Shown here: in pieces, positions 24,568 to 61,970 of the stretch
Layout of the letters: every line of letters starts with the position of its first letter
Position numbering within the stretch: position 1 is the first letter of the stretch
Source of the DNA: Streptomyces sp. NBC_00271
GTDB lineage: Bacteria; Actinomycetota; Actinomycetes; Streptomycetales; Streptomycetaceae
Direction: 5' to 3'
NCBI RefSeq assembly: GCF_036178845.1
Contig: NZ_CP108070.1
Span: 2,418,001 to 2,482,000 of the forward strand
DNA length: 64,000 nt
The notes under the pieces: generated by a model
The model's input: the letters and a program-made list of their open reading frames with translations, nothing else
Databases searched by the model: none
What the model was told of the DNA's origin: nothing
Position numbers and translations under genes: made by a program

Positions 24568-24631
24568 AACCTAGGACCCAGTCGCGGTGCGGCTTGTCCG
24601 GGAGCGCACGGGCCAAGGTCCGCGAAGGAAC
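24568..24631 (-). promoter_or_regulatory. 22-bp direct-repeat operator and promoter, catabolic operon
   Basis: On the minus strand the first half-site begins GTTCCTTCGCGGAC (outer end 24631). The second, GTGCGCTCCCGGACAAGCC (24609-24591), starts exactly 22 bp later. TAGGTT (24573-24568) follows 17 nt on as a -10 box. It points to the five-gene run 24472-17760. Confidence 0.72.
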
Positions 24632-24655
24632 CCGGCGACGGGAGAGCCGGGACGA

Positions 24656-24719
24656 GTGCGCTGTCGGGCACCGAGCCGTGCTCTGGCGGACAAGCCGCCG
24701 GAGCGGCGCCTCCTCGCCT
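24656..24719 (+). promoter_or_regulatory. 22-bp direct-repeat operator and promoter, poxB
   Basis: The first half-site begins GTGCGCTGTCGGGC (24656); the second, GTGCTCTGGCGGACAAGCC (24678-24696), starts 22 bp later. A weak -10, TCGCCT (24714-24719), lies 17 nt downstream. It is back-to-back with the operator at 24591-24631, with 24 bp between them. Confidence 0.72.
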
Positions 24720-24756
24720 GACTGGGGACTCAGGACAGAGCGCTTCGAGGAGAGTC

Positions 24757-26499
24757 ATGCCCAAGCAGACCGTTGCCGAGCAGTACGTCGACCTCCTGGC
24801 CCGCGCCGGGGTGCGCCGGATGTACGGCGTCGTCGGCGACAGCCTGAACCCGGTCGTCGACGCGGTCAGGCGGCACGACGCCCTCGAATGGATCCAGGTC
24901 CGGCACGAGGAGGTCGCCGCCTTCGCCGCCGGCGCAGAGGCACAGCTCACCGGCCGGCTGGCCGCGTGCGCGGGATCCTGCGGCCCGGGCAATCTGCACC
25001 TGGTCAACGGCCTGTTCGACGCACACCGTTCGATGGCACCGGTGCTGGCGCTGGCCGCGCAGATCCCCAGCAGCGAGATCGGCACCGGGTACTTCCAGGA
25101 GACGCATCCGGACCGGTTGTTCGAAGAGTGCAGTCACTACTCGGAACTGGTTTCCTCGCGCCATCAGATGCCCCGCGTGGTGCAGACTGCGATCCAGCAC
25201 GCGGTCGGCAGGCGAGGCGTGTCGGTCGTGGCCATGCCCGGAGACATCGCCGCCCAGGAGTCCCCGGACAACGTCGCCGAACTGGCGATTCCGCTGGACC
25301 GGCCCGCCGTCCGTCCCGGCAACGAGGAACTGGCGCGTCTGGTCCAGCTCGTGGACGCCGCCGAGAAGGTGACGGTCTTCTGCGGCCGGGGCGTCGAGGG
25401 CGCCCATGCGGAGGTGATGGCCTTCGCCGAGAAGGTCAAGGCCCCGGTGGGCCACGCGCTGCGCGGCAAGGAGCACATCCAGTACGACAACCCGTACGAC
25501 GTCGGGATGTCCGGCCTCCTGGGATACGGCGCCGCCTACCAGGCGATGCACGAGTGCGACCTGCTGCTGCTCCTGGGAACCGACTTCCCCTACACGGAGT
25601 TCCTGCCCCGCGACGTGCGGACCGTCCAGATCGACATCCAGCCCGAACGGCTGGGCCGACGAACACAGTTGGACCTCGCGGTGTGGGGGGACGTCCGCGA
25701 GACACTCAAGTGCCTAACCCCGGAGGTCCGGGAGAAGCCGTCCCGCCGGTTCCTCGACCGCATGCTGGACCGGCACCTGCACGCGCTCGAAGGCGCGGTG
25801 GGCGCCTACACGCACAACGTCGAGAACTACATCCCGATCCACCCCGAGTACGTGGCGTCCGCGCTGGACGAGGAGGCCGCCGACGACGCGGTGTTCACCG
25901 TGGACACCGGCATGTGCTGCGTCTGGGCCGCCCGGTACCTGACGCCGAACGGACGCCGCCGTATCCTCGGTTCCTTCGTCCACGGCTCGATGGCCAACGC
26001 ACTGCCCCAGGCCATCGGCGCGCAGTTCCTCGACCGCGGCCGACAGGTGGTCTCCCTCTCGGGCGACGGCGGGTTCTCCATGCTGATGGGCGACTTCCTG
26101 ACCCTCGTCCAGTACGGCCTGCCGGTGAAGGTGGTCGTCTTCAACAACTCGTCCCTGGGCATGGTCGACCTGGAGATGATGGTCGACGGTCTCCCTCCGT
26201 ACGGCACCGGGTACCCGCACACCGACTACGCGGCCATCGCCACCGCCGCCGGCGCACGCGGCATCCGGGTCGACAAGCCCGGGGACGTGCGCGGCGCCCT
26301 GCGCGAGGCCTTCGCTCACGAAGGGCCGGCACTGGTCGATGTGGTCACGGACCCCAACGCCCTTGCAGTACCCCCCAAGATCACCTCTGAACAGGTGACC
26401 GGCTTCGCCCTGTCCGCCAGCCGGACCGTCCTCAGCGGAGGAGTGGGGCGGATGATCCATCTGGCACGGACGAACCTGCGGAACATTCCGCGCCCCTGA
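24757..26499 (+). CDS. poxB: Thiamine-diphosphate pyruvate oxidase/dehydrogenase (quinone), PoxB type
   Basis: A 580-residue ThDP enzyme. The cofactor-activating Glu51 is in QVRHEEVAAF, a central FAD/dehydratase-like domain follows, and the ThDP-Mg motif runs from SLSGDGGFSMLMGD to FNNSSLGM (about residues 433-467). PoxB oxidises pyruvate to acetate and CO2, passing electrons via FAD to quinones at the membrane. The C-terminal tail is basic (MIHLARTNLRNIPRP), consistent with membrane association. Acetolactate synthase is less likely given the PoxB-like PGDIAAQE and HTDYAAIA contexts. It is expressed from the 24656-24719 promoter and would supply electrons to the cytochrome bd oxidase encoded 6 kb away. 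Confidence 0.9.
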   Translation: MPKQTVAEQYVDLLARAGVRRMYGVVGDSLNPVVDAVRRHDALEWIQVRHEEVAAFAAGAEAQLTGRLAACAGSCGPGNLHLVNGLFDAHRSMAPVLALAAQIPSSEIGTGYFQETHPDRLFEECSHYSELVSSRHQMPRVVQTAIQHAVGRRGVSVVAMPGDIAAQESPDNVAELAIPLDRPAVRPGNEELARLVQLVDAAEKVTVFCGRGVEGAHAEVMAFAEKVKAPVGHALRGKEHIQYDNPYDVGMSGLLGYGAAYQAMHECDLLLLLGTDFPYTEFLPRDVRTVQIDIQPERLGRRTQLDLAVWGDVRETLKCLTPEVREKPSRRFLDRMLDRHLHALEGAVGAYTHNVENYIPIHPEYVASALDEEAADDAVFTVDTGMCCVWAARYLTPNGRRRILGSFVHGSMANALPQAIGAQFLDRGRQVVSLSGDGGFSMLMGDFLTLVQYGLPVKVVVFNNSSLGMVDLEMMVDGLPPYGTGYPHTDYAAIATAAGARGIRVDKPGDVRGALREAFAHEGPALVDVVTDPNALAVPPKITSEQVTGFALSASRTVLSGGVGRMIHLARTNLRNIPRP

Positions 26500-27570: not shown

Positions 27571-27794
27571 CCGCCGGCTTCGGCGCCGCCGCCGTGGCGG
27601 GCGATTTCGACGCCGACGGACTGCTCGCCCCATACAAGATGGATCCCTGAAGTCGGCGCTCAGTTCTTTCTCATACCGCGTTCCGTGCATTCCGCGACAA
27701 ATTCCCCAGCTATGGAATTTTAGCGTCGTTCCCAGGAAATCTGCTTCTGCAGCCATTGTGGGGGACGAAATTGATCCAGCCTCTTCCGTCGGTC

Positions 27795-28196
27795 ATGTGC
27801 ATGGTGACAGTACTTGTGAGCGTTCCGAACGAGCTGTCGACGCCGCTGCCCGCGGAGCTGCACTACGACATGAGCGACCCATACGCCGTCCGACTCTCCA
27901 TCGGCGCGCCCGCGGCCAGACCCGTGGACTGGGTGTTCGCCCGCTCGCTGCTCACGGAAGGCCTGCACCGGCCCACCGGCACCGGAGACGTGCTGGTGAT
28001 TCCCCGGCATCGCTGCCATCCCGGCTCCGTACGCATTGTGTTGAGGTCGGGCGCCGGTGTGGCGCAGGTCGACATCGCGGCGTCCGCGGTCGCCGCGTTC
28101 CTGCGGCGGACGGTGTCGCTCGTGCCCCCGGGGGCCGAGAGCCTTCACGTCGACTTGGACCGTGTCCTCGACGAGCTCACCGACAGGCAGGACTGA
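27795..28196 (+). CDS. SsgA-like sporulation/cell-division regulator
   Basis: About 133 residues with the SsgA-like signature: LVSVPNELSTPLPAELHYD, SDPYAVRLSIGAPAARPVDW, FARSLLTEGLHRPTGTGDV and VAAFLRRTVSLVPPG. SALPs are found only in sporulating actinomycetes and control septum placement and spore maturation. The start is uncertain: ATG at 27795 or 27801, or a TTG at 27756. The ribosome-binding sites are weak, and comparison with SsgA proteins favours 27795 or 27801. It converges on the MFS gene. Confidence 0.85.
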   Translation: MCMVTVLVSVPNELSTPLPAELHYDMSDPYAVRLSIGAPAARPVDWVFARSLLTEGLHRPTGTGDVLVIPRHRCHPGSVRIVLRSGAGVAQVDIAASAVAAFLRRTVSLVPPGAESLHVDLDRVLDELTDRQD

Positions 28197-28236: not shown

Positions 28237-29931
28237 CTATGGCGTGTTGCCGAGCGGGGCATCGGGCTTGACCTGGTCGGCAGCGGTGGCGCCAGTCTCT
28301 GCCTCCGTCTCGGGCACGACAGGACCCTCGGCGGCATCGAAGGCATGGGTCACCTCCGGGACAGTGCCCGGTACGAGCAGGCTGCGGGCCCGTTCTTCGT
28401 GACGGCGGTCGGTGGCCGTGACCCGGCTGTGGTGCTGGGCGAGGTGCTCCGCCCATGAGGCGACCAGGTAGTTCTCGATGAACCGGTCCGGATCGTTGCC
28501 GTCCTGGTAGAGGCCCCAGGTAAGGGCTCCCGTGCGGCGGCGCGAGCGGGCCACATTGTCCATGCAGTCGGTGAAAGCGGCCCTGTTCCCGGGGCCGACC
28601 CGGTAGGCGACGGAGACCAGCACGGGGCCGTCGGCGGGGCCGGGTTCGAACAGCAGGGGCGGAACCGGCCAGTGGTCGGACGGAGTCGGATCGATGGCGT
28701 CCGTGCCGTGCAGCGGCCAGCGGCGCACGGTCACCGCGCCGGCCACGAGCAGTCCGCTGCCGACCAGGAGCGAGACGGTCAGGCCCAGCCCATCGGCCAG
28801 CGCGCCCCACAGGGGTGCCGCCAGTGCCTGCCCGCCCTGGAAGACCAGGAGGTAGACGGCGAGTCCCCGGGCCCTGACCCAGCCGGGCAGCCGCGTCTGG
28901 AGGGCCGTGTTGAGGGTGGACAGTACGCCGATCCAGGCCAGTCCGGCGGGCAGTAGCGCGCCCACCGCGAGCCAGGGGAGCCGGGTGGTGGCCAGCACCG
29001 CGAGCACGGCGGCGAAGACGAGGGCCCCCGCGGCCAGAGTGCCGTTGGCGCCGAGAGCGCGGCGGACGGCAGGCAGTACGAAGGCCCCGCCGACGGCTCC
29101 GGCACCGACCGCGCCGAGCAGCAGCCCGTACCCTCCCGAGCCCAGGCCCAGGGAACGGCTCGCGACCAGGGGAAGCAGTGACCACAGCGCGGCGCCGCCG
29201 GGTATGAACAGCAGCGTACGCAGCAGGACTCGGCGGACTCCGGGCGCATTCCACACGTAGCGGCGGCCCGCGTGCAGAGCCGTCAGAAGCTTCTCGCCCT
29301 GAGCCGTGGGCGCTTGGGTCCTGGGCCGCCGCCAGAACATGAGAACGGCCGCGATACCGAGGTAGGACGCGGCGTTGAAGGCGAATACCCAGCCCGCGCC
29401 CGCCGCCGCGACCACCGCTCCACCGATTGCCGGACCGACGGCGCGTGCCAGGTTCATGTTCACGGCGCCGAGCGCGGCCGCCTGTCCCAACTGGCGGCGC
29501 TCCACGAGCTCCGGCTGGATCGCCTGCCAGGCCGGGCCCATCAGCGCGGTGCCGCATCCCAACAGGAAGGTGAGGCCGAGCAGCAGCTCCGGGGTGAGCG
29601 CGTCCGCGAACGCCAGGACGGTCAGCGCGGTGGAGACGGCGAGCATGGCGAACTGGGCGACCAGCAGCACCGTACGACGGTCGTAGCGGTCGGCCAGCAC
29701 GCCCGAGGGCAGGGCCAGCAGTACAACGGGGAGACTGGAGGCGGTCTGGACGAGCGTCACCAGCGCGGCGCCGTGCCCGACCAGCAGCCACTGGGCGCCC
29801 ACCGTCTGCATCCAACTGCCGATATTGGAAACCAGTTGCGCGATCCACAGCGCGCGGAAGACGCGCGCCGCGAGCGGGGCCCAGGGCGAATCCGCATCTG
29901 GGCGGTCTTTCGGTGACGGTGCAGTGCTCAT
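28237..29931 (-). CDS. MFS exporter with C-terminal ABM-like domain
   Basis: A 564-residue MFS_3/EntS-type exporter with about 12 membrane helices. It shows LVSNIGSWMQTVGAQWLL near TM1 and GVLADRYDRRTVLL as the loop 2-3 motif. After the last helix there is a soluble region of roughly 120 residues (PVLVSVAYRVGPGNRAAF, TWGLYQDGNDPDRFIENYL, SWAEHLAQHH) resembling an antibiotic-biosynthesis-monooxygenase dimeric barrel. The ATG at 29931 starts about 80 nt downstream of a predicted -10 (30012-30017). The substrate is unknown; drug or siderophore-like export is possible. Confidence 0.88.
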   Translation of the reverse strand: MSTAPSPKDRPDADSPWAPLAARVFRALWIAQLVSNIGSWMQTVGAQWLLVGHGAALVTLVQTASSLPVVLLALPSGVLADRYDRRTVLLVAQFAMLAVSTALTVLAFADALTPELLLGLTFLLGCGTALMGPAWQAIQPELVERRQLGQAAALGAVNMNLARAVGPAIGGAVVAAAGAGWVFAFNAASYLGIAAVLMFWRRPRTQAPTAQGEKLLTALHAGRRYVWNAPGVRRVLLRTLLFIPGGAALWSLLPLVASRSLGLGSGGYGLLLGAVGAGAVGGAFVLPAVRRALGANGTLAAGALVFAAVLAVLATTRLPWLAVGALLPAGLAWIGVLSTLNTALQTRLPGWVRARGLAVYLLVFQGGQALAAPLWGALADGLGLTVSLLVGSGLLVAGAVTVRRWPLHGTDAIDPTPSDHWPVPPLLFEPGPADGPVLVSVAYRVGPGNRAAFTDCMDNVARSRRRTGALTWGLYQDGNDPDRFIENYLVASWAEHLAQHHSRVTATDRRHEERARSLLVPGTVPEVTHAFDAAEGPVVPETEAETGATAADQVKPDAPLGNTP

Positions 29932-30011
29932 GCTGGTCCATACCGGATCGAGAACGCAGGCGCCTCGCATCCGACAATGTCTCAGGCGCCGTGTGGGCAT
30001 AGCCGGTGCTC

Positions 30012-30076
30012 ACGGTAGGGCGCTCCGGTGTACCCCTGTTGCCCGCCAGTGCACTGTCTTCGGCCCGGAAGCGAAC
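30012..30076 (-). promoter_or_regulatory. 22-bp direct-repeat operator and promoter, MFS exporter
   Basis: On the minus strand GTTCGCTTCCGGGC (outer end 30076) and GTGCACTGGCGGGCAACAG (30054-30036) start 22 bp apart. TACCGT (30017-30012) follows after 18 nt. The orientation is toward the exporter at 29931. Confidence 0.72.
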
Positions 30077-30100: not shown

Positions 30101-30165
30101 GTGCGCTGCGGGGACACGAGCGATGCGCACAGGGGCAAAGGGTGCCCACCGGCCGACCCTACGGT
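30101..30165 (+). promoter_or_regulatory. 22-bp direct-repeat operator and promoter, cydABDC
   Basis: GTGCGCTGCGGGGA (30101) and the weaker ATGCGCACAGGGGCAAAGG (30123-30141) start 22 bp apart; TACGGT (30160-30165) follows after 18 nt. The operator is back-to-back with the exporter operator, 24 bp away. The remaining sequence to the cydA start (about 200 bp) is a leader with no Rex-type TGTGAA dyad visible. Confidence 0.68.
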
Positions 30166-30363
30166 GGCCTCGGAAGCCGGGGAAACGCCGGGACGAAATG
30201 CCGACCGCTACAAGCCGCTACCGGCGGAGGAGCTCGGTCATCGTTCACGCCCACGGGGCCTCGCGCCCTGTCGTGGTGTCACCGCCGGAGGGCCAATGGC
30301 CCAACCTCGTAGGCAATTCCGCCAGGGTTGCCGGACCGACCCGAATCGACCAGAGGAGACCCC

Positions 30364-31728: not shown

Positions 31729-32998
31729 GTACGCGTCATACGGCTTGGTCCTGCTCGCACTCGGCGCCTATGTGCTACTCGACGGCTACGACCTGGGCAT
31801 CGGCATCCTGAGCCTGTTCGACCGCAGCGACCGGCGGCGCAAGGAGGACAACGAGCTGATCGCGACCGCCTGGGACGCCAACGAGAGCTGGATCATCCTG
31901 GCGGGCGTGGCTCTGTGGGCGGGCCTGCCCGGTGTCTACGCCACTGTGCTGCCGGGCGTCTACCTGCCGCTCGTGGTCATGCTGCTGGCGATCGTGCTGC
32001 GCGGCACGGCCATCGAGCTGCAGAGCGCCGCCCCCGGCTATCGGCGCGGCTGGGGCCTCGTCTTCGGAATCTCGTCCCTGGTGGCCACTGTGTGCCAGGG
32101 CCTCGTGGCCGGAGGCGTCCTGTCCGGACTGTCCCACCGCGGTGGGGTGTTCACCGGGGGCACCTGGGACTGGCTGACGCCCTACAGCGTGCTGTGCGCC
32201 CTGGGGCTGGTGGCCGTCTACCTGCTTGCAGGTGCCGCATGGCTGCAGGACAAGACCACGGGCACCGCCCACGACCGCGCGGGCCGACTGGGCCGACCGC
32301 TGCTCGTGGCGGTCGCGGCGGCCGGCCTGGTCCTGGGATTCGGGCTCCGCGTCGCCGACCCGCAGCATCTGCGCTTCGACCAGCCGCTCCGCGCGGGCCT
32401 GTTCGGGCTCGCGGTGGCGGTGGCGGTGGTCTGTGCGGCGATCGCCTGGTACGGCTTCGGCCGCCGGCCGGACTGGCGTCCGTTCGTCGCCGTGGCCGGT
32501 ACGGAGGCCGCAGGGCTGCTCGCGATCGTCGCCGCCACCGCACCCGTCGTCGTCCCGCCCGACCTGACCGTGCACGCCGCGGCCAGCCCGCACGGTTCGC
32601 AGCTGTTCCTGCTCATCGGGGTGGGCGGCTGCATGCCGGTCGTCCTCACCTACAACATCTACGCGTGGTGGGTCTTCCGCGGGAAGTTCGCCCAGCCAAC
32701 GGCCGACACCGAAGCGGCGGTCCCGTCCGACAGCACGACTGCCGCGGAGCGGCCCACGGCGGTGGCGTCGGCCACGGGAGACGGTCCGTGGGCGGCCGTC
32801 GTCGTCCGGCGCGTGCTTCTGACCCTCCTGGCCGTCGCGGTGGCCGCCGTCTCCCAGGACATCTTCGGTGACGTGCGCGCCTGGATCGACCCGGCCGGTG
32901 TCGCCGTCTTCTCCGTCACCGCACTCGCCCTCTGGATCCGGTCCGACCGCCGCTCCGCAGCCGCAGGTGATTTCAACCTCCAGGCAGCCGAGAAGTGA
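31721..32998 (+). CDS. cydB: Cytochrome bd ubiquinol oxidase subunit II
   Basis: A 425-residue subunit with eight or nine helices. It begins MLEYASYGLVLLALGAYVLLDGYDLGIGIL, and the conserved DGYDLG is typical. NESWIILAGVALW and LPLVVMLLAIVLRGTAIEL follow. The loop after TYNIYAWWVFRGKF is long, Ser/Thr/Ala-rich and probably cytoplasmic, and a final helix pair ends at ALWIRSDRR. It pairs with CydA; start and stop overlap cydA and cydD, implying translational coupling. Confidence 0.95.
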   Translation: MLEYASYGLVLLALGAYVLLDGYDLGIGILSLFDRSDRRRKEDNELIATAWDANESWIILAGVALWAGLPGVYATVLPGVYLPLVVMLLAIVLRGTAIELQSAAPGYRRGWGLVFGISSLVATVCQGLVAGGVLSGLSHRGGVFTGGTWDWLTPYSVLCALGLVAVYLLAGAAWLQDKTTGTAHDRAGRLGRPLLVAVAAAGLVLGFGLRVADPQHLRFDQPLRAGLFGLAVAVAVVCAAIAWYGFGRRPDWRPFVAVAGTEAAGLLAIVAATAPVVVPPDLTVHAAASPHGSQLFLLIGVGGCMPVVLTYNIYAWWVFRGKFAQPTADTEAAVPSDSTTAAERPTAVASATGDGPWAAVVVRRVLLTLLAVAVAAVSQDIFGDVRAWIDPAGVAVFSVTALALWIRSDRRSAAAGDFNLQAAEK

Positions 32999-37480: not shown

Positions 37481-37545
37481 AAAATAGGCACCGAGGGCGG
37501 CAGCGGTTGTTCTCACAGCGCACCGGGCCTCGACTGTCCGGGCAC
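37481..37545 (-). promoter_or_regulatory. 22-bp direct-repeat operator and promoter, VOC gene
   Basis: On the minus strand GTGCCCGGACAGTC (outer end 37545) and GTGCGCTGTGAGAACAACC (37523-37505) start 22 bp apart. TATTTT (37486-37481) follows after 18 nt. This copy is more divergent but keeps the spacing. Confidence 0.62.
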
Positions 37546-37578: not shown

Positions 37579-37643
37579 GGGCGCTACCGGGCAGGAGGCG
37601 GTGCGCTGGAGGACAACGGGCGGTGGGAGGTCCGCTCTACCGT
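37579..37643 (+). promoter_or_regulatory. 22-bp direct-repeat operator and promoter, MIP channel
   Basis: GGGCGCTACCGGGC (37579) and GTGCGCTGGAGGACAACGG (37601-37619) start 22 bp apart; TACCGT (37638-37643) follows after 18 nt. The ATG of the channel gene lies 43 bp beyond. It is back-to-back with the VOC operator, 33 bp away (one helical turn more than the other pairs). Confidence 0.7.
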
Positions 37644-42974: not shown

Positions 42975-43575
42975 CGTGGACACCTTTCGACAACCTCCTG
43001 CGGGATGAACGGCGTCGATTTCATCGAATCGACTTTCCATGTGAACGACAGCGGCGGGTGGAAGAGAACCGGGGATGCGCGTTACCGCGCCCACGCTGAA
43101 CCGACGCACCGATCCGAATTGCGGGTGGGATTTCTACGCGATGCACAGGTCCAGACCCAGGCGCCCCGCGACTGCTTCGCCGCCAGGCTATTTCGAGCCG
43201 AAGTGCCCCTGTATCCCGGCAGTGCACTGGCTGCGTCCCGACAGTGCACTGCCTCTCCGTGCACCCTGAGGCCAAGTCCGGTGCGCTCGTGGATAATTTC
43301 CACCGCCTCTGTTCCGGCCGTTCGCGGGCCGTGGGGAGTCGGCCGTGCGACGTGGGCAACGAACTGTGGGCATTGGCCGAGCCGTTGCTCCGCGTCCGTC
43401 ACTCGGAGCCCGCAGGGATCCGAAGTGCCGATCTCCTCGCGATACTTGCCCTCGGGAGCGTCCGCTTCACCGGCGAAGACACCGCCCAATGACGCGGGCC
43501 CAAGCCGGGATTGGCCGCGAACCGGCAATCGAAACACACCCGTCCCGGCCGCAGGCCGAGGCGAGGGTTGCTGTG
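42975..43575. other. Intergenic decay zone with operator and IS5-like trace
   Basis: About 600 bp between the amidohydrolase gene and the SDR remnant. It holds the operator-promoter at 43185-43249 and, on the plus strand at about 43350-43440, a short segment VGNELWALAEPLLRVRHSEP that resembles the start of IS5-type transposases. No intact gene is supported. Confidence 0.45.
43185..43249 (-). promoter_or_regulatory. 22-bp direct-repeat operator and promoter, amidohydrolase run
   Basis: On the minus strand GTGCACTGTCGGGA (outer end 43249) and GTGCACTGCCGGGATACAG (43227-43209) start 22 bp apart; TAGCCT (43190-43185) follows after 18 nt. An extra GTGCAC lies 15 bp further upstream. The leader to 42974 is about 200 nt. 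Confidence 0.7.
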
Positions 43576-47263: not shown

Positions 47264-47327
47264 AGGCTAGAGCGGCCCGACAACGGCCCTGGTCCGCCAG
47301 CGCACGAATACCTGCCCGAGAGCGAAC
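47264..47327 (-). promoter_or_regulatory. 22-bp direct-repeat operator and promoter, flavoprotein-ltrA
   Basis: On the minus strand GTTCGCTCTCGGGC (outer end 47327) and GTGCGCTGGCGGACCAGGG (47305-47287) start 22 bp apart; TAGCCT (47269-47264) follows after 17 nt and lies 47 bp before the start codon. Confidence 0.72.
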
Positions 47328-47350: not shown

Positions 47351-47415
47351 GTGCGCTGGCGGTCACCACCGCGTGCACTGCCGGTCAAGCCGCCCCCCGA
47401 ACGGGCACCTAGCGT
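47351..47415 (+). promoter_or_regulatory. 22-bp direct-repeat operator and promoter, dps
   Basis: GTGCGCTGGCGGTC (47351) and GTGCACTGCCGGTCAAGCC (47373-47391) start 22 bp apart; TAGCGT (47410-47415) follows after 18 nt. It is back-to-back with the flavoprotein operator at a distance of 23 bp. This is one of the best-conserved copies. Confidence 0.75.
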
Positions 47416-51771: not shown

Positions 51772-52743
51772 TCAGTCCGTGTGCAGGGCGGTACGCAGGG
51801 TCTGGACCGCGAGGGTGATGGCGCCCTGGGCAGCCTGGGTGCCGCGCAGGGTGTTGAGCATCACGAAGTCGTGGATGATGCCCTGGAAGCGGACGGCGGT
51901 GACGGGCACGCCGGCCTCGCGCAGCTTGCCCGCGTAGGCCTCGCCCTCGTCGCGCAGGACGTCGGCCTCGCCGGTGATGACCAGGGCCGGGGGCAGGCCG
52001 GTGAGCTGCTCGGTGGTGGCGCGCAGCGGGGAGGCGGTGATCTGGGCGCGATCGGCCTCGTCGGTCGTGTACTGGTCCCAGAACCACTGCATGCCGTCGC
52101 GGCGCAGGAAGTAGCCGGTGGCGAACTGGTGGTAGGAGCCGGTGTCGAAGTTCGCGTCGGTGACCGGGTAGAACAGGACCTGCTGGAGCAGCGGGACATC
52201 GCCGCGCTCCTTGGCCATCAGGGTCAGCGCGGCGGTCATGTTGCCGCCGACGGAGTCGCCGGCCACCGCGAGGCGGCTGCCGTCCAGGCCCTTGGACGCG
52301 CCCTGCTGCACGACCCACCGGGCGACCGTGTAGTTCTGCTCGATGGCGACGGGGTAGCGGGCCTCGGGCGAGAGGTCGTACTCGGGGAAGACCACCGCGG
52401 CCTCGGCGCCGACGGCCAGTTCGCGGACCAGGCGGTCGTGGGTGTGGGCGTTGCCGAACACCCAGCCCGCGCCGTGGATGTAGAGGATCACCGGGAGGAT
52501 GCCGGTGACGCCGGCGGGCTTGACGATCCGGGCCCGGACGCTGCCCGTCGGACCGCCCGGGACGGTGATCCACTCCTCGTCGATGTTCGGCATCTCGATC
52601 TCGCCGGACTGCACCTCGTCGACGGCCTTGCGACCCTCCGCCGGGGCGAGGTCGAACAGGTACGGCGGGTTCGCGGTCGCCTCGGCGAAGGCCTGCGCCT
52701 CCGTCTCCAGCAAGAGGGCAACTACTGACGTGTCGTCAGACAT
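51772..52743 (-). CDS. HSL-type alpha/beta hydrolase (esterase)
   Basis: A 323-residue esterase of the hormone-sensitive-lipase family: YIHGAGWVFG (HGGxW-type oxyanion), nucleophile AGDSVGGN (Ser164), acid in ITGEADVLRDEGE and His in FQGIIHDF. The ATG at 52743 follows AAGGAG and overlaps the AraC-type gene's stop by 8 bp. Its promoter lies inside the 3' end of that regulator gene. It is a paralog of the protein encoded at 54970-55956. Confidence 0.92.
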   Translation of the reverse strand: MSDDTSVVALLLETEAQAFAEATANPPYLFDLAPAEGRKAVDEVQSGEIEMPNIDEEWITVPGGPTGSVRARIVKPAGVTGILPVILYIHGAGWVFGNAHTHDRLVRELAVGAEAAVVFPEYDLSPEARYPVAIEQNYTVARWVVQQGASKGLDGSRLAVAGDSVGGNMTAALTLMAKERGDVPLLQQVLFYPVTDANFDTGSYHQFATGYFLRRDGMQWFWDQYTTDEADRAQITASPLRATTEQLTGLPPALVITGEADVLRDEGEAYAGKLREAGVPVTAVRFQGIIHDFVMLNTLRGTQAAQGAITLAVQTLRTALHTD

Positions 52744-53839
52744 CTTCTGCTCCTTGGATGTTGTGACTGACATCGGCATTCAGGCTAGGAATCGGCGGCG
52801 CGGAGGCTTGTCCGCCCGTGCACGGCTTCCGGACCGCCAGTGCACGCGCCGCCGAGGACGCTCGTCGCCACTCGACCGGCGACATGTCGTAGGCCTCGCG
52901 GAAGACCCGGCTGAAGTGCGCGGAGCTGGCGAAGCCCCAGCGCGCCGCCACGACGGCGATCGTGCACCGGGCCGCGTCGGGCCGGGCCAGTTCCTCGCTC
53001 GCAGCCTCCAGGCGGCGGGCACGCACCCAGGAGTTGACGGTGGTCCCCTCCCGCTGGAAGAGCTGGTGCAGGTAGCGCAGGGAGACGCCGTTGCGGTGGG
53101 CGATGTCCTGCGGGGAGAGTTCCGGCTCGCCCAGGCGGGTCTCCATATGGGCCTTGATCCGGTCCAGAAGTTCTGCCCCGGGCCGCCGCTGCTCCGCCTC
53201 CTGAGCCCCCGCCTGGTGCAGCGCCAGAACCGCGACCAGGTCCGCCGTGGCGCGGGCGAGCCGCTCGCGCAGGGCCGGGGCGGCGGCGAGGGACTCCTCG
53301 GCCAGACCGGACAGCAGCGGCAGCAACAGGTCGGCCGGAGCATCCTCGGCATCGTCCAGGACCGTCGCGGTGAGGCGGCGCAGCTGCGCTTCCTCCAGCC
53401 GGAGCAGCGCCCGCGGCAGCATCAGGATCCGGGCGCGCTGGTCGGAGGTGATGACGAGCTTGAACGGTCGGCTCGCGTCGTGGAACGCCAGGCCGCCCGG
53501 GTCCAGCCGCGTAGCCCGGCCGTCCTGCAACAACAGGACGGAGCCGTGCAGCTGCTGGCGAAGCAGCACATGCGAGCGGCCGTCGGCGGCCACGGCGGCC
53601 GAGGTGCGCACGATCGTCACCGGGGCGCCGGTCTCCTCGGTGGCGATCTGAAGGGCTCCGAACCGCTCGGCGCGCAGTGTCCCCGTCCAGGGGTCGGTGC
53701 CGGGCACCGGCGACACCTCGACCTCGACGAGGACGCGGGAGAGCGCCGCCTGCCAGGCGGCCGTCCGGTCCTCGGGGGCCAGCTCCCGGGTCGAGAACAC
53801 GAGCGCATCGGCGTTTGTGGTCAGTTGGGGTTCGGCCAC
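52736..53839 (-). CDS. AraC-family transcriptional regulator (AraC-binding-like N domain)
   Basis: A 367-residue regulator. The N-terminal half resembles the AraC_binding_2 sensor domain (WQAALSRVLVEVEVSPVPG, DGRATRLDPGGLAFHD). The C-terminal double helix-turn-helix has NGVSLRYLHQLFQREGTTVNSW and VAARWGFASSAHFSRVFREAYD, then MSPVEWRR. The GTG at 53839 follows GGGGAG and overlaps the upstream regulator's stop by 19 bp. A C-terminal tail of about 40 residues coincides with the esterase promoter. It is one of two AraC candidates for the island-wide operator. Confidence 0.9.
   Translation of the reverse strand: MAEPQLTTNADALVFSTRELAPEDRTAAWQAALSRVLVEVEVSPVPGTDPWTGTLRAERFGALQIATEETGAPVTIVRTSAAVAADGRSHVLLRQQLHGSVLLLQDGRATRLDPGGLAFHDASRPFKLVITSDQRARILMLPRALLRLEEAQLRRLTATVLDDAEDAPADLLLPLLSGLAEESLAAAPALRERLARATADLVAVLALHQAGAQEAEQRRPGAELLDRIKAHMETRLGEPELSPQDIAHRNGVSLRYLHQLFQREGTTVNSWVRARRLEAASEELARPDAARCTIAVVAARWGFASSAHFSRVFREAYDMSPVEWRRASSAARALAVRKPCTGGQASAPPIPSLNADVSHNIQGAEDV
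52782..52845 (-). promoter_or_regulatory. 22-bp direct-repeat operator and promoter, esterase
   Basis: On the minus strand GTGCACTGGCGGTC (outer end 52845) and GTGCACGGGCGGACAAGCC (52823-52805) start 22 bp apart; TAGCCT (52787-52782) follows after 17 nt, 38 bp before the start codon. The site lies inside the AraC-type coding sequence. Confidence 0.73.
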
Positions 53840-54873
53840 GACTGCTCCCCACGTCCGCGCCGGGCGTGCTCGCGTCGGAGCCACTCCGTCGGGGAGAGGC
53901 CGAGGGAGGAGCGGAAGACCCGTCCCAGGTGGGCGGAGCCGCTGAACCCCCAGCGACGGGCGACCCTCCCCAGGTCGGCGGTCCCCGCGGCCGCCGTGGC
54001 GAGGTCGACGCAGCACTCCTGAAGTCGTAGGTCGCGGATCCACTGGCAGACAGTGGTGCCCTCGCCCTCGAACAGCCGGTGCAGGTAGCGGACCGAGATG
54101 CCATGGGAACGGGCCACGACCTGCGGGGTCAGGTCGGGGTCGGACAGGTGCCAGCGGATGAAGTTCTGCACGCGCAGCAGCAACACACGCCCCGCGCCAG
54201 GAAGCTCACCGGTCTCCCGTCCCGCGCACTGGGCCGCGGTGGCCGCCATCAGGTCTACGACGTTGGCCGCGAGCCGTTCGCCGACGGGGGTGCTGTAGGA
54301 GTCGGATGCGTCGGCGAGCCGGGACAGGAAAGGGGAGAGCAGCGCCGGGAGTCCCCCAGTGGGGCGCCACGCACGTGCGGTGATGTCATGCAGCTCCGCC
54401 TCCTCCTGGCAGAGCAGGATGCGAGGAACCGCGAAGATCTTCAGCTGGAACCGCTCGGGGAAGCGGGTGCGGAACGGGCGGATCGTCTCGAAGAACGCGA
54501 TGTCGCCCGGTCGCAGCTCCGTCACCCGGCCGTCCTGTTCCACCTGTGCGACGCCCCTGGCCTGTACCGCCACGAAGACCTGGCGGCCGTCGCCGGCGGC
54601 TATGAATCTCGGGGACCGGTGGACCTCGCCGGGATCACACTCGACCGTGGTGATCCGCAGCTCGGCGAGGCGATCCGTGCGCATGGTGGCGTCATAGGTC
54701 CGCCCGTCGGTGCTGATGTCCATGCCGACCAGGGTGGCGAGCACGGCGTCGTGCCAGAACTCCAGGCTCTCGTGCGGCGGAACCGAGCGGGTCGACAGCA
54801 CCTGGGCCGGCGGCCTCGCGGTGAGCCCGCGTCGCCCGGTTCCCTCGTCGATGGGGCTGATCAATGCTGACAT
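53821..54873 (-). CDS. AraC-family transcriptional regulator (AraC-binding-like N domain)
   Basis: A 350-residue regulator with the same domain layout as its downstream neighbour. The N domain has LEFWHDAVLATLVGMDIST and VTELRPGDIAFFETIRPFRT; the DNA-binding part has HGISVRYLHRLFEGEGTTVCQW and VARRWGFSGSAHLGRVFRSSLG, then LSPTEWLRREH. The two regulators are coupled by overlapping codons and may form a hetero-pair. The ligand is unknown. No copy of the shared operator was found upstream of this gene. Confidence 0.9.
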   Translation of the reverse strand: MSALISPIDEGTGRRGLTARPPAQVLSTRSVPPHESLEFWHDAVLATLVGMDISTDGRTYDATMRTDRLAELRITTVECDPGEVHRSPRFIAAGDGRQVFVAVQARGVAQVEQDGRVTELRPGDIAFFETIRPFRTRFPERFQLKIFAVPRILLCQEEAELHDITARAWRPTGGLPALLSPFLSRLADASDSYSTPVGERLAANVVDLMAATAAQCAGRETGELPGAGRVLLLRVQNFIRWHLSDPDLTPQVVARSHGISVRYLHRLFEGEGTTVCQWIRDLRLQECCVDLATAAAGTADLGRVARRWGFSGSAHLGRVFRSSLGLSPTEWLRREHARRGRGEQSWPNPN

Positions 54874-56060: not shown

Positions 56061-58913
56061 TCAGGCGATGTCGGTCTCCGCCGCGGACAACAGATCGCGC
56101 AGTTGGTGGCGCCGACTCACGCCGAGTTTGGGATAGACGTTGTACAGATGTGTGCCCACCGTACGCGGTGACAGAAACAGCTGCTCACCGATCTCACGAT
56201 TCGACAGGCCACTGGCCGCCAGCCGGACGATCTGCCGCTGCTGAGCAGTCAGTTCGGCCAGTGCGACATCAGGTTCGGCAGCGCAGGCCGCTCCGCTGGC
56301 GCGCAGCTCGGCCCGGACGGCCGCGGCCAGCGGATCCGCGCCGAGCTGTTCGGCCATCTCCAGGGCCGCGGTCAGCTGCTCCCGTGCCTCCAGCGGCCGG
56401 CGGCCACGCCGGAGCCAGACCGCGTAGCTGAGCCGGGCCTGGGCTCGCTCCCACGGCCATTGCTCACTCTCGGGGTTGACCACCGCTAGCTGGAAGTGCT
56501 GCTCGGGGTCACCCTCAAAGTCCACCAGTGCGGCCGCGTGGTGGAGCAGCAGCGTCATCCGCGTGGTGGGCCGCTCGCCCTGCTGCGAGCGGACCCGGGC
56601 CAGAATCCGCGCCGTCTCCTCCTCCCGCCCCGTCCGCTTGGCGGCGACGGCGAGTTCGGCGATGGCACGCGGCGACAGGAACGGGTGCAGCGGCGAGCCG
56701 TCCGCGTCGAACAGCGCCCGCCACTGGCGGAAGGCCCGGGCCCAGTCACCCTGGGCGGTTGCCGCCAGGGCACGGGCCCGCAGGATGCGCGCCTGGGTCG
56801 CGCGGTTTCCCTCAAGGTCAAGGGCACGCCAACGCGCCTCGGCCGCAGACGGATCCGGTACGGTCCCGCCGCGCAGCGCGGACAGGGTCAGGGCGAGCGC
56901 GTCGAGATCTGCCTGAACGCGGGACTGCCCCAGGACAGCGGCACCGTCGCTGCTTTCCTCGAGCAGCGCCTCCGCCTCCGTCCACCGGCCTGTCGCCAGG
57001 AGCGTGTCCGCCATCGGCGCCAGCGACCAGGCCCGCAGACCGAGCGCCTTGCGGGTGCGCAGCTGTGCGTCGGCCTTGCGGTACTGCCGCAGGCAGGCGT
57101 CGGCTTCGTCCGCCTGGTAGGCGGCCCAGGCTACGGCGAGCCGCTGGGCCAGCCTGCTCGGACTGTCCGGAAGGGCCCCGAGGCGCGGCTGTTCGAGACC
57201 GCGCAGGAGCCGGGCGGCGGAGCCCGGGGGCGTCGCCACCAGGGACACGACGGCGCGCAGGGCCGACCGCACCTCGGGGTCGTCGAGCCGTGCCAGCGAC
57301 CCGATGGACTCCGAGCCGGCCCGGGTCCTGCTCTCGGTCCGTGCGAGCAGTGCCGCCAATCGGCTGCGGTGTTGCGGCAGTGCGGACTGGTCGGCGACGG
57401 CTGCGGCCAGCGAGGCCAGGGCGAGCGTGAGGGGGCCGTCGCCGGGCAGGGTGCGCTCGCAGACGTCCAGCAACAGGTCGAAGGCTTCTTCCTGGAAGGA
57501 GGACAGCGAGAGGGCGGTGCTCATGGCGGCGGCGGCCAGAAAGGTCGTCTCGGCGTCCGCATCGATCCTGGTGAACTCCTGGTACAGGTCCCCCACCCAG
57601 TCCGGGTCCCCGACGAGGTGGGCGGCGGCCAGTGCCTCGGCCAGCCGTCGGGCGCGGTCGCGCACGCCGGGGCTGAGCCGGGCAGCCTGTTCCAGGGTGG
57701 CCGCCGCGGTGAAGGCGTCCTGCGCGTCCCAGGCGGCTCCTTCGAGCGCGACGGCGATCGACTCATCGGGTCCGAGTGCGGCCGCCGCCCGGTAGCGGGC
57801 GCGGGACGCCTGCGGGCCGGCTGCCTCAGCCAGGGCCAGGTAGGCCGTGCGGCGCAGCTGGGCGGGGTGCCGCGCTCCCGCGGAACGGCGTACCAGTGCG
57901 TGCCGGAACGAGATCCCTCCGTCGGCCACGGTGACGATGCCGGCCGCCTCCGCCGGGGCCCAGACATCGAGGTCCGGCGTGTCCAGGGCGGTCATGACTG
58001 TCCAGAGGTCCTCGCCGGGATCCGCGAGCGCCGCGTAGAGCAGCGCGTGCTGCGTAGTGGCAGGCAGGGCGGCGAGCCGGGACTCGAACTCGTCCTGAGC
58101 GAAACGAAGTTGGGGCAGCTTCCCGCCGGGGACGGCCCGGTCTGCAGCCGACCGTCCCAGTCGGCACAGTTCCAGCAACGCCTGCGGGTTTCCTCTGGCC
58201 TCCTCCAGCAGTTCCAGCCTACGGCGGCCCCGGGGTACACCAGGCTGTTCGTCCAGGAGCGCGGCGGCGGCCCTCGGCGTCAGTGGCGCCAGGTACAGCA
58301 AGCCCAGTTCCGTCGGCAGCCCCGTCGGGACGGCCTCGCCGCGCGCCGCGAGGAGCACCGACACACCGCGGCCGGGCAGGTGGCGGATGACCGAGCCGAT
58401 CACGTCCATTGAGGCCTGGTCGCAGTCCTGGATGTCGTCCACCGTCAGCAGCACCGGTGCTGAGGCGGCAAGGTGCTGAAGCAGCACCAGCACCGCCATC
58501 TGAACCGGCCGGGCATCGACCGGGGACGGCCCGGGCCTCGCGGCGACCACTGTCACCAGAGCCCGACGCTGGGGCTCGGGCAGACCGCCGGTCTCGTCCA
58601 GAACTAGGGTGAGCAACTGGCGTAGGCAGGCGTAGGGGCGGTCTCGCTCCACGGCCCAGCCGTGCGCCGACAACACCAGCGCGCCGTCCTGGGCGGCCTG
58701 CTCCCCGGCGGCGCGCAACAGCCGGCTCCTGCCTATGCCTTCCTCTCCGAGCAGCAGTAGCCCCCGGGACGGGGTGCTCTGCCCTGGCCCGGCGCTCTGG
58801 AGGATCCGCCCGAGTTCGGCCTCTCGGCCGACCAGCCCGGTACCCGCGGGCTCCCGGTGATGTGAGCCGGCAGTCGCACCAGTGGCAGTCATGCCTACTG
58901 TCTCGATCGTCAT
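56061..58913 (-). CDS. LAL-type LuxR regulator, P-loop Lys replaced by Arg
   Basis: A 950-residue large ATP-binding LuxR regulator: AAA/STAND ATPase at the N terminus, tetratricopeptide-like helical middle, LuxR helix-turn-helix at the end (LTAQQRQIVRLAASGLSNRE, then FLSPRTVGTHLYNVYPKLGV). Walker A reads GEEGIGRSRLL, with Arg62 (AGG) where Lys is expected; Walker B is VLLTVDDIQD. ATP hydrolysis may be impaired. The ATG at 58913 is likely; ATG 58892 is possible. It is divergent from a second LAL gene. Confidence 0.9.
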   Translation of the reverse strand: MTIETVGMTATGATAGSHHREPAGTGLVGREAELGRILQSAGPGQSTPSRGLLLLGEEGIGRSRLLRAAGEQAAQDGALVLSAHGWAVERDRPYACLRQLLTLVLDETGGLPEPQRRALVTVVAARPGPSPVDARPVQMAVLVLLQHLAASAPVLLTVDDIQDCDQASMDVIGSVIRHLPGRGVSVLLAARGEAVPTGLPTELGLLYLAPLTPRAAAALLDEQPGVPRGRRRLELLEEARGNPQALLELCRLGRSAADRAVPGGKLPQLRFAQDEFESRLAALPATTQHALLYAALADPGEDLWTVMTALDTPDLDVWAPAEAAGIVTVADGGISFRHALVRRSAGARHPAQLRRTAYLALAEAAGPQASRARYRAAAALGPDESIAVALEGAAWDAQDAFTAAATLEQAARLSPGVRDRARRLAEALAAAHLVGDPDWVGDLYQEFTRIDADAETTFLAAAAMSTALSLSSFQEEAFDLLLDVCERTLPGDGPLTLALASLAAAVADQSALPQHRSRLAALLARTESRTRAGSESIGSLARLDDPEVRSALRAVVSLVATPPGSAARLLRGLEQPRLGALPDSPSRLAQRLAVAWAAYQADEADACLRQYRKADAQLRTRKALGLRAWSLAPMADTLLATGRWTEAEALLEESSDGAAVLGQSRVQADLDALALTLSALRGGTVPDPSAAEARWRALDLEGNRATQARILRARALAATAQGDWARAFRQWRALFDADGSPLHPFLSPRAIAELAVAAKRTGREEETARILARVRSQQGERPTTRMTLLLHHAAALVDFEGDPEQHFQLAVVNPESEQWPWERAQARLSYAVWLRRGRRPLEAREQLTAALEMAEQLGADPLAAAVRAELRASGAACAAEPDVALAELTAQQRQIVRLAASGLSNREIGEQLFLSPRTVGTHLYNVYPKLGVSRRHQLRDLLSAAETDIA

Positions 58914-59091
58914 TCGTGTACCCCGGACATTGCACTGCACGTCTGTTCGGCCACCAACTCCGATGGAACGATCTTCAGGGCTCCGGGGGCGGTACGCATC
59001 TGTCATGTGACCAGTGGCAGTCGCCGGGCGTGGCACCGTTCGGCTGGCAGAATCCCCCCTGCAGGATCAGGCGACCGAGACGAGGACCACC

Positions 59092-61866
59092 GTGCACCCC
59101 CCTGACCGACCCGCGTCCGGCCCGGAGATCATGGGCAGGGATCGAGAGCTGTCCGGTCTGGCCCGGCTCCTCGATGCCGCGGACGGCTTGGGCCCGAAGG
59201 TCCTGGTGCTCACCGGCGAGCCGGGCTCGGGTAAGAGCACTCTGGTCGAGTGGGCCGCCGCCCAAGCCGGGTCCCGCCACCTGCGGACGCTTCGCGTACG
59301 GGGCAGCGAGGGCGAGTCCGGCCTGTGCCTCGCGGGGGTGCACCAGCTGCTGCGACCGCTGCTGGGGGCCGTGGACGAGCTGCCGGAGCGGCAGCGCGAC
59401 GCGCTGTCCGCCGCGTTCGGTCTCGGCGACGCGGACGGCGAGGAACCAGTGGATCCGCTGCTGCTGCGCCTGGGCGCACTGACCCTGCTCTCCGATGCCG
59501 CCGCCCGGCAGCCGCTGCTGCTGCTCGTGGACGACGCCCAGTGGCTAGACCTCGGCTCGCTCGACCTCCTCGCCTTCCTCGCGCGCCGCCTCGACCCCGA
59601 GCGGGCCGTGCTGCTGCTCGCCTCGCGGGAGGAGGCGGTTCCGGCCCGTTTCGACCGCGACTTCCCCCATCTGGTGGTCGGCCCGCTGGAACCCATGGCC
59701 GCCGTCCGGCTGCTGGACGCCCAGCCGTCCCCGCCGCAGGGCCGGGCGCGCACCGAGATCCTCCAGCAGGCCACGGGCAACCCGCTGGCCCTGATCGAGC
59801 TGAGCCGCGCGCTCGCCCGGGACGGCAGCACCACCGCCCACGGTCGGCCCCTTCCGCTCACCAGCCGTCTGGAAACCCTCTTCGCCGCCGACCTGCCCAC
59901 GCTTCCCCTGGAGGCACGGCGCGCCCTGCTGCTCGTCGCCACCGCGGGCACCGCCCAGCTGTCGGACATCCTGCTCGCCGCCCCCGACCTGGACGCGGCG
60001 AAGGCGCTGCTCCCGGCCGAGGAGGCAGGTCTGGTACGGGTCGAGGGCGGGCAGGTGACGCTCCGTCACCCGCTGGTGCGCTCCGCCGTCCTCCAGGCCG
60101 CCTCGTTCACCGACCGACGCGAGGCGCACCTGGCGCTGGCCGCCGCGCTGACGCACGAACCCGACCGCCGGGCCTGGCACCTGGCCGCCGCCGCGCTGGG
60201 ACCGGACCAGGAGGTGGCCGACGCCCTGGCCGAGACCGCCGAGCGCTCCCGCGACCGGGGCGGACACGCCGCCGCGGCGGCGGCCCTGGAACGCGCCGCG
60301 GAGCTGACCCCCGATCCGGCGCAGCACACCGAGCGTCTGCTGGCGGCGGCGGAATCCGCCATGTACGCAGGGCATCCGCAATGGGTCGGTGAGCTCACCG
60401 ACCGCGTCCCCGGGCTTACCGAGGACCCCGGCCTCCGCGCCCGGGCCGCGCTCCTGGGCGGCTGGGCCCTGGGTGTCACCCTGCGCCACGACGACGCGCT
60501 GGCGGTCCTGCTCCCCGTGGCCGAGTCCATGGCCGGCCCGGCGCCGGCGCTGGCCCTCGGCGCCCTGAGCACCGCAGCCACCTCCGCCTACAACTCCGGA
60601 GACCCCTTCTACCAGGGCGAGTTCGACCGCCTCTGCGCACTGGTCGGCCACGCGGACGAGCCCGTCGCACAGGCATGGATTCATGCCGCGCTCCACCCGC
60701 ACACCCGGCGAACGGACGCGCTCCACCGGCTGGAACGTGCGCTGGCCGGCAAGCCGGACGACTCGGTCGGCGTCCTCGCCGCCCTGGGCGCCGCCGCGTG
60801 GGTCCTGGACGAGAGCGAACTCGCGGTCCGCGTGCTCGGTCAGGCCATGGACCAGATGCGGCGGGCCGCGACCGCCGGCACGAACGCGACCGTCGGACAG
60901 GCCCTCGCACTCGGCCTCTTCGAGACCGGCTCCTGGACGGCCGCCCTGACCGCAGCCGAGGACGCCTACCAAGCGGCCGCGGAGGCGGGCGCCGACAACG
61001 TCACCGTCGGCTCGCCTCTGCTCCAGGCCACCCTGCACGCCGTGTGCGGCGACCACGAGGCCGCCCGCGCCCAGGCGCAGGATGCGGTCCGTGGCATCGA
61101 CCTGCGCAAGTCCCGCAGCCTGCATGTGCGTTACCGACACGCTCTGGGCCTTGCCGCCGTCGTGGCAGGCGACCACGACAACGCCTATGACCTGCTGCGG
61201 GGAACTTTCACCCGCGACTTCAAGCCGCTGCCCGTGCACTACCACGCGTCCGTGTACTGCCTGGGCGACCTCGCCGCCGCGGCCGTCCGGGCCGACCGGA
61301 CGGACGATGCCCGCTCCGTGCTGGAAGCCGCCGAGCACAGCCTCGGCGCCACGCGGTCCCCCCGCGTCCACGCCGTCGTCCGGCGTGCCGCCGCCCTGCT
61401 CGGCGACTCCGAGGACGCTGAGCAGCACTTCCTCGCCGCTCTCGCCGATCCGGCATGCGCCCGCTGGCCCTTCGAACTCGCCCTCACCCGGCTGGACTTC
61501 GGTGAGTGGCTGCGCCGCCGCCGACGTGCCACGGAGGCACGCCCGATGCTGAGCGGGGCGCTGGAGATCTTCCAGCGCTTGGGCGCTCAGCCCTGGGCCG
61601 AGCGCGCGGCGGCGGAACTCCGGGCCGCCGGTGCCCCGGTGTCCCTACCGGCCGCGAGCCCTGAGGTCGAACTCACGCCGCAGGAGCGGCAGATCGCGGA
61701 ACTGGCCGCGCAGGGCCTGACCAACCGTGACATCGCCGCCCGGCTCTACGTGTCGCCCCGGACCGTCGGCTACCACCTGCACAAGATCTTCCCCAAGCTC
61801 GGCATCAGCAGCCGGCACCAGCTGCGGGACCTCCTTTCCCCCGGCACCGGTCAACCTCCCGAATAG
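59092..61866 (+). CDS. LAL-type LuxR regulator
   Basis: A 924-residue LAL protein with an intact Walker A (TGEPGSGKSTL, Lys48) and Walker B (LLLLVDDAQWLD), a long helical-repeat middle and a C-terminal HTH (LTPQERQIAELAAQGLTNRD, IAARLYVSPRTVGYHLHKIF). LAL proteins are activators that often control secondary-metabolism or catabolic genes after binding a small molecule. The GTG at 59092 follows GACGAGGA; an in-frame GTG at 59014 is less likely. The gene is followed by an MFS gene under the shared operator. Confidence 0.9.
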   Translation: MHPPDRPASGPEIMGRDRELSGLARLLDAADGLGPKVLVLTGEPGSGKSTLVEWAAAQAGSRHLRTLRVRGSEGESGLCLAGVHQLLRPLLGAVDELPERQRDALSAAFGLGDADGEEPVDPLLLRLGALTLLSDAAARQPLLLLVDDAQWLDLGSLDLLAFLARRLDPERAVLLLASREEAVPARFDRDFPHLVVGPLEPMAAVRLLDAQPSPPQGRARTEILQQATGNPLALIELSRALARDGSTTAHGRPLPLTSRLETLFAADLPTLPLEARRALLLVATAGTAQLSDILLAAPDLDAAKALLPAEEAGLVRVEGGQVTLRHPLVRSAVLQAASFTDRREAHLALAAALTHEPDRRAWHLAAAALGPDQEVADALAETAERSRDRGGHAAAAAALERAAELTPDPAQHTERLLAAAESAMYAGHPQWVGELTDRVPGLTEDPGLRARAALLGGWALGVTLRHDDALAVLLPVAESMAGPAPALALGALSTAATSAYNSGDPFYQGEFDRLCALVGHADEPVAQAWIHAALHPHTRRTDALHRLERALAGKPDDSVGVLAALGAAAWVLDESELAVRVLGQAMDQMRRAATAGTNATVGQALALGLFETGSWTAALTAAEDAYQAAAEAGADNVTVGSPLLQATLHAVCGDHEAARAQAQDAVRGIDLRKSRSLHVRYRHALGLAAVVAGDHDNAYDLLRGTFTRDFKPLPVHYHASVYCLGDLAAAAVRADRTDDARSVLEAAEHSLGATRSPRVHAVVRRAAALLGDSEDAEQHFLAALADPACARWPFELALTRLDFGEWLRRRRRATEARPMLSGALEIFQRLGAQPWAERAAAELRAAGAPVSLPAASPEVELTPQERQIAELAAQGLTNRDIAARLYVSPRTVGYHLHKIFPKLGISSRHQLRDLLSPGTGQPPE

Positions 61867-61905
61867 CGCAGGGGTGCCCAGTCGGTCACGGTCGCGTTCC
61901 GCAGC

Positions 61906-61970
61906 GTGCGCGTAGAGGAACAAAGGAGTGCACGCACGGACTACTTGGCTGGTCCAGGCCGGTTTAGCTT
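61906..61970 (+). promoter_or_regulatory. 22-bp direct-repeat operator and promoter, second MFS gene
   Basis: GTGCGCGTAGAGGA (61906) and GTGCACGCACGGACTACTT (61928-61946) start 22 bp apart; TAGCTT (61965-61970) follows after 18 nt. The half-sites are weaker than others, but both distances match. The leader to 62153 is about 180 nt. Confidence 0.62.

Follow-up and report, generated by a model that had tools for sequence, protein, structure and literature searches.

A 22-bp direct-repeat operator conserved across many Streptomyces marks a regulon probably run by AraC-type activators

A 64,000-nucleotide stretch of the main contig of Streptomyces sp. NBC_00271 (NZ_CP108070.1, positions 2,418,001-2,482,000 of a 12.28 Mb genome; G+C 70%), hereafter the window, contains an island of genes whose promoters share a 41-bp element made of two directly repeated half-sites. 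All eleven 41-mers listed in the original prediction, which had been made from the letters of the window, read as described, with half-site starts exactly 22 bp apart, and ten of the eleven lie outside the listed genes, the exception being 52805(-), which overlaps the 3' end of the AraC gene 52736-53839. The half-site form proposed at that time, GTGCRCTGNCGGNC, is present as a pattern, but the real half-site is looser, with several left half-sites, among them those of 24591(-), 37505(-) and 61906(+), departing from it. Across 68 sites the conserved blocks of each half-site are GTGC(R)CT and CGGRCAA, two short boxes roughly one helical turn apart, and the matrices of half-site 1 and half-site 2 correlate at 0.71.

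The putative operators are distributed over most transcription units of the island. At its left end, 24591..24631(-) faces an alpha/beta hydrolase gene (23597-24307) and 24656..24696(+) precedes a poxB-like pyruvate dehydrogenase/oxidase gene (24757-26499). Next come 30036..30076(-) before an MFS exporter gene (28237-30000) and 30101..30141(+) before cydABDC (30328-36425), followed by 37505..37545(-), the weakest of the eleven, before a gene lacking Pfam matches (about 36504-37436) and 37579..37619(+) before a MIP-type channel gene (37787-38503). The operator at 43209..43249(-) heads a run of amidohydrolase, isochorismatase-like, DoxX and DUF1275 genes, while 47287..47327(-) precedes a flavoprotein disulfide-reductase-like gene (about 45850-47217) with an LtrA gene behind it and 47351..47391(+) precedes dps (about 47456-48034). 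The last two are 52805..52845(-), before an Abhydrolase_3 (hormone-sensitive-lipase-like) gene (51772-52779), and 61906..61946(+), before an MFS transporter gene (62153-63403). The Pfam and NCBIfam names of these targets suggest stress, respiration and detoxification, and they do not point to a single pathway. All eleven sites of the original prediction proved real, and two others had been missed: an extra putative operator at 43259..43299(+), back to back with 43209(-), possibly directed toward the MarR gene 43912-44337 and without TAnnnT at the usual position, and a weaker possible operator at 27663..27703(+), with TAGCGT as its -10, before the SsgA-like gene 27756-28196.

The specificity of the element was assessed by leave-one-out scoring, each site being scored with a matrix of the other ten against order-3 Markov background sequence; the weakest site, 37505(-), has an expectation of 0.8 per 128 kb, and each of the other ten at most 0.1. 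The genome holds 34 copies of the plain half-site pattern and 7 of its reversed control, so that rarity is a property of the paired 41-mer and not of the single half-site. When the whole genome was scanned with a model of the 41-mer without its -10 (R1, built from the eleven window sites), the best eleven matches were exactly the eleven building sites, with no sharp gap thereafter (E-value 0.022 for the twelfth match versus 0.019 for the one before). A refined model that included the -10 (R2, from 72 sites of the window and other genomes picked for TAnnnT) returned 14 matches up to E 0.005, the next lying at E 0.15. Twelve of these fall in the island, in line with the earlier view that the motif is confined to it, but two lie elsewhere on the main contig (C1) and were absent from the 72 training sites. 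Of these, C1:8820414(-) directly follows an AraC gene and precedes two hydrolase genes, one of the Abhydrolase_3 type, and C1:11176753(-) lies upstream of the DUF5709-coding part of an open reading frame (ORF). Another off-island match, C1:3489597 (R1 E 0.022), was rejected as its spacing is 21 bp and it is not among the R2 matches up to E 1. The extra operator 43259(+) scores 13.1 bits with the window matrix and 27.4 bits with the refined matrix (E 1.6 with R1, E 0.005 with R2) and is thus supported by the refined model. The corresponding scores of 27663(+) are 10.5 and 16.6 bits; neither R1 nor R2 recovers it in the genome, and what argues for it is its position together with the orthologue sites described below. 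With the window matrix, neither site scores above the random maxima, which reach 16.5 bits.

Conservation of the operator in other genomes is extensive. A match at E <= 0.05 was found in 72 of 199 genomes of the genus, a number of them with several sites per stretch, and in 20 regions from 14 other genomes most sites precede orthologues of window genes although gene order is reshuffled. We then scanned 80 public loci, the best 80 of 244 retrieved by the amidohydrolase protein alone (79-93% identical to the window protein), which derive from 77 Streptomyces, two Saccharopolyspora and one Actinacidiphila; two of the loci share one genome, and at least six (L110, L114, L117, L147, L149 and L151) are contigs already in the set of genome regions. 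With a matrix made from the eleven window sites alone and a threshold of 15 bits, 252 sites were found in 1.58 Mb; the reversed matrix gave 3, and 20 permutations of the matrix columns gave 0-3. The offset of 22 bp is strict, with 249 sites against 4-9 when the second half-site is shifted by 1 to 4 bp (offsets 18-21 and 23-26), and the spacing is conserved in orthologous promoters. Taken with the leave-one-out expectation and the genome ranking, these permuted controls exclude random occurrence, and the sites are not randomly placed in the genome. A class-wide search of 394 genomes with stricter filters (E <= 0.001) recovered ten genomes of Streptomyces and seven of other families, the latter with one weak match each, and a further search in one of those families returned the same two of 35 genomes. 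The regulon extends beyond one island and one species.

Within the public loci, the operator precedes 72 of the 80 amidohydrolase orthologues, all 12 poxB orthologues, 37 of 44 dps orthologues and 48 of 60 Abhydrolase_3 orthologues, as compared with one of 44 for the hydrolase gene behind Abhydrolase_3. Lower proportions were found for orthologues of the MFS exporter 28237-30000 (11 of 31), LtrA (10 of 27) and the flavoprotein (9 of 20), the last figure being too low because 12 initially unassigned sites precede the flavoprotein gene. Small numbers are available for cydA (2/3) and gene 36504-37436 (1/2), and GNAT genes carry the operator in 2 of 22 cases. Genes inside operons lack it: DoxX (0/76), DUF1275 (0/73), flavin mononucleotide reductase (0/13) and cydB, cydC and cydD (0/4 each). 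The zeros at inner operon genes serve as a control and show that sites precede first genes. No operator was found before the single public orthologues of AraC1, AraC2, LAL1 and LAL2, the regulator genes of the window (0/1 each), and no orthologue of the MFS transporter 62153-63403 turned up in these loci. Counterpart sites also exist for 27663(+), before ssgA-like orthologues in L068 and L071, and for 37505(-), in L071 and L079. Sites left without an assigned gene number 38 with the identity limit and 36 without it. Some window targets find little backing among orthologues, the operator preceding 2 of 8 ssgA-like, 2 of 12 luciferase-like and 0 of 1 MIP orthologues; the zeros for MIP and for the hydrolase 23597-24307 (0 of 2) count against these targets or are too few to judge. 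Overall, the comparative data bear out the view that most of the island's transcription units have an operator in common.

Several observations concern the gene calls themselves. The hydrolase encoded by 23597-24307 matches Abhydrolase_1 only from profile position 31, and its start is therefore missing or out of frame in the gene call. The gene between the amidohydrolase and DoxX genes, at window 40303-41835(-), encodes an isochorismatase-like hydrolase, over which a conserved but wrong ORF frame is also offered at 40253-41338. The amidohydrolase, isochorismatase-like, DoxX and DUF1275 genes, at window 39011-43109(-) and in the orthologous loci, form an operon-like unit without an assigned function.

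These promoters also share a fixed distance between the operator and the -10. A -10-like hexamer begins 17 or 18 nt past the 41-mer at all eleven window sites, as had been proposed, and ten of the hexamers read TAnnnT, the exception being TCGCCT at poxB. The same spacing recurs in the public loci, where, among 230 sites scoring 18 bits or more, 207 have TAnnnT at +17 (37) or +18 (170), most commonly as TAGCGT, with two other offsets represented once each among 53 positions tested. Orthologous promoters are rich in information at the half-sites and the -10 and poor in it at the flanks; for the amidohydrolase the half-sites carry 1.28 bits per column, the -10 carries 1.05 and the flanks 0.11; site selection raises the half-site value, while the flanks and the -10 played no part in selection. 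The conserved block stops about 20 nt upstream of the -10. With a transcription start assumed 6-7 nt past the -10, the distal half-site would span roughly -71 to -56 and the proximal one roughly -49 to -34. The proximal half-site then reaches the -35 position at a fixed distance from the -10, as is characteristic of AraC/XylS class II promoters. Two other symmetries were considered and rejected. For an inverted repeat, half-site 1 correlates at 0.39 with its own reverse complement and at 0.71 with half-site 2. PhoP/OmpR-type boxes are 11-bp direct repeats, and the matrix self-correlation here is 0.24 at 11 bp versus 0.71 at 22 bp.

The leading candidate activator in the window, and the most likely one, is AraC1 (52736..53839, - strand), which combines the Pfam domains PF14525 (AraC_binding_2) and PF12833 and has, like other AraC family proteins, a beta sensor domain at the N terminus and a two-helix-turn-helix (two-HTH) domain at the C terminus. 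Its structure model (predicted local distance difference test, pLDDT, 87.3; predicted template modelling score, pTM, 0.61) matches CuxR and AraC DNA-binding domains in fold; CuxR (PDB 5nla) is an AraC-like activator, a c-di-GMP-binding regulator of Sinorhizobium. AraC2 (53821..54873, - strand) belongs to the same clade by Pfam and alignments, with HLGR in the second recognition helix where most members have HFSR. ORFs of this clade occur in 41 of the 80 public loci, and clade members are present in 28 of 33 genomes with strong sites versus 32 of 166 others. In a tree of AraC proteins, the 18 operator-linked proteins and one unlinked protein group together (branch support 85/93), and linkage changes twice versus 12.3 times after shuffling; with 66 linked rows, in a set that contains two pairs of identical rows, there are 3 changes versus 16.8, 'near' and 'far' having been assigned by hand from position relative to operators. 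The clade profile cut-off of about 314 bits excludes 5 of the 66 linked rows, of which three are truncated where the locus ends, and retains one unlinked row that falls inside the clade. Left out of the AraC set were five AraC_binding_2 matches of genomes G109, G154 and G179 and off-cluster AraC proteins of G111 and G020, and one match region of the present genome (G000, L094) yielded no AraC ORF in the list. In 6 of the 66 rows an operator sits on the AraC strand at the 3' end of the gene, and in 9 it is placed divergently upstream of the gene, the two positions together accounting for 13 of 64 distinct AraC genes. Among 20 regions around AraC_binding_2 genes, mostly off-cluster, a site was found in one, L091, the next best scoring 9.4 bits. 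That locus (L091:4629-13286; G000:C1, about 8.82 Mb) carries, on one strand, SARP, AraC, SARP, AraC, operator, Abhydrolase_3 and hydrolase; both AraC genes are clade members, the first without the first 56 profile positions.

A number of findings count against a role for this clade. Five genomes with strong sites (G018, G112, G157, G163 and G170) have no clade member over the cut-off, and G170 has no AraC_binding_2 gene at E <= 1e-5. Conversely, 20 genomes with a clade AraC have no site at E <= 0.05, and in L089 (contig C2, 310 kb, of the present genome) a clade AraC stands beside a LAL gene with no operator in the 19 kb covered. No AraC was found in 39 of the 80 public loci, which cover up to 10 kb on each side. 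As the genomes are related, Fisher p-values overstate independence. XylS-type half-sites have a 21-bp period; the half-site described here differs from the XylS consensus TGCA-N6-GGNTA, and the XylS/CphR operator pattern, that consensus at a 20-21 bp period, is not found here.

A genuine operator might instead be recognized by a regulator whose gene lies unlinked in another part of the genome, possibly a repressor that overlaps the -35. The 39 loci without AraC in the stretch and the five genomes lacking a clade member over the cut-off favor such a regulator, while the strong linkage and co-occurrence of one AraC clade and a direct-repeat geometry like that of AraC/XylS activators oppose it; we regard it as very unlikely. 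The MarR gene 43912-44337 was also rejected as the regulator, there being no MarR match in the 80 public loci.

The remaining alternatives involve the other regulators found near the operators. LAL1 (56061..59036, -) and the divergent LAL2 (59014..61866, +), each with AAA_16 and a LuxR-type HTH by Pfam, could themselves bind the operator, with the AraC genes as passengers or acting elsewhere. In addition to the presence of both genes inside the island, a third LAL relative starts at the island edge, so that the regulator block extends past the window, and of the 48 clade AraC ORFs in the public loci, 27 have a LAL or SARP ORF at most 2.5 kb away, which in 25 cases is on the same strand. That third relative (G000:C1:2481475-2484156, from about window 63475 past the window end) sits just past the MFS gene, is 54% identical to LAL1 and has one stop in the aligned stretch. 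LAL ORFs, however, occur in 16 of the 80 loci compared with 41 for AraC, and LAL1 relatives (E <= 1e-80) in 7 of 25 strong-site genomes, a subset of the 33, of which 21 have a clade AraC, although a single protein and a profile are not compared like for like here. The half-site spans about 16 bp and has its two boxes a helical turn apart, an arrangement that also appears to suit a two-HTH protein better. We regard binding by the LAL proteins as very unlikely, and LAL1 as a weaker candidate binder and possible partner. The sites could also be SARP boxes, direct repeats two helical turns apart: according to two reports, SARP/AfsR-type proteins are Streptomyces activators whose direct repeats, 11 or 22 bp apart, overlap the -35 (PMC10936776, PMC10972967), and SARP genes flank the off-island AraC genes of L091. 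The 3' repeat of a SARP operator is placed 8 bp from the -10 in the first of these (PMC10936776), as opposed to a conserved block that stops about 20 nt before it here; moreover, SARP ORFs are linked in just 9 of the 80 loci, all but one also with a clade AraC, and no BTAD match was found among the window proteins submitted to Pfam. This is the least probable of the three alternatives, and both LAL and SARP regulators fit worse than the AraC/XylS clade.

Two characterized systems provide the nearest parallels. CphR, an AraC-type activator of Rhodococcus, has sites at -69 to -55 and -49 to -35 of the cphA2A1 promoter, and shares with the present system its actinobacterial origin, two imperfect direct repeats reaching the -35, an AraC gene beside the target and half-sites built from a TGC box and a GG box (PMC6205950). 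The CphR repeats are 15 bp of the form TGCA-N6-GGNTA, 20 bp apart, with one target promoter described (PMC6205950), unlike the TGCR-N5-GGNCA(A) found here, 22 bp apart at about 14 promoters. At the Pm promoter of the Pseudomonas TOL plasmid, XylS likewise uses two direct repeats, each with boxes A and B touched by the two HTH recognition helices, and its monomers bind in turn and contact RNA polymerase; consensus and spacing, the single operon promoter and the benzoate inducers set it apart (PMC5481539). A description of the present operator or regulon was not found in searches of an open-access library, subscription papers lying outside it.

Because the half-site positions match the direct repeats of CphR and XylS, the best reading is class II activation by a pair of AraC monomers arranged head to tail, and the comparative data together with these two promoters agree with the original prediction that the downstream half-site overlaps the -35. 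We consider it probable, from sequence comparisons, that activators of one AraC/XylS clade use the 41-bp element as their operator, with AraC1 the likeliest in the window; clade linkage, co-occurrence and the XylS/CphR comparison uphold the expectation of an AraC-type protein as the likely binder. Two monomers would bind head to tail, one per half-site GTGCRCTGNCGGRCAA, the boxes GTGC and GGRCAA of each half-site being read by the two HTHs. The downstream monomer, at about -49 to -34, would assist rather than block RNA polymerase, presumably carrying the main sigma factor, where a promoter has a TAnnnT -10 and no good -35. A common signal would then turn on about 14 promoters together, and with them pyruvate oxidase, the cytochrome bd operon as a respiratory bypass, Dps, the flavoprotein, the exporters, the channel and several hydrolases. 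That the physiological purpose is a switch to pyruvate oxidase and cytochrome bd accompanied by protection and export is plausible, though we hold it with less than even confidence.

The most unusual aspect is that about seven paralogous AraC groups stand beside one unchanged operator. Which group the neighboring AraC falls into differs between loci (groups read off the tree by eye), and two groups co-occur in some, such as L148, L169 and L185. The operator consensus is alike beside each group, with correlations of 0.91-0.97 for six sets from 43 chosen loci; a single matrix found all sites, which favors likeness, and other AraC genes may lie farther off. We tentatively suggest that some seven AraC/XylS groups with differing sensors read one operator, so that species may exchange the sensor and keep one regulon for a respiratory bypass, Dps protection and detoxification. 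Under this suggestion the frequent tandem encoding of AraC with a large STAND regulator (LAL or SARP) would also have a place, as AraC-STAND tandems may act together. The data describe a conserved regulon in many Streptomyces, probably run by AraC-type activators: a new AraC/XylS-type regulon with a sharp operator and promoter architecture that unites PoxB/cytochrome bd respiration, Dps, exporters and hydrolases. Because the operator is strict, the members of the regulon can be listed in any genome, and the convergence of paralogous AraC sensors on one operator is directly testable.

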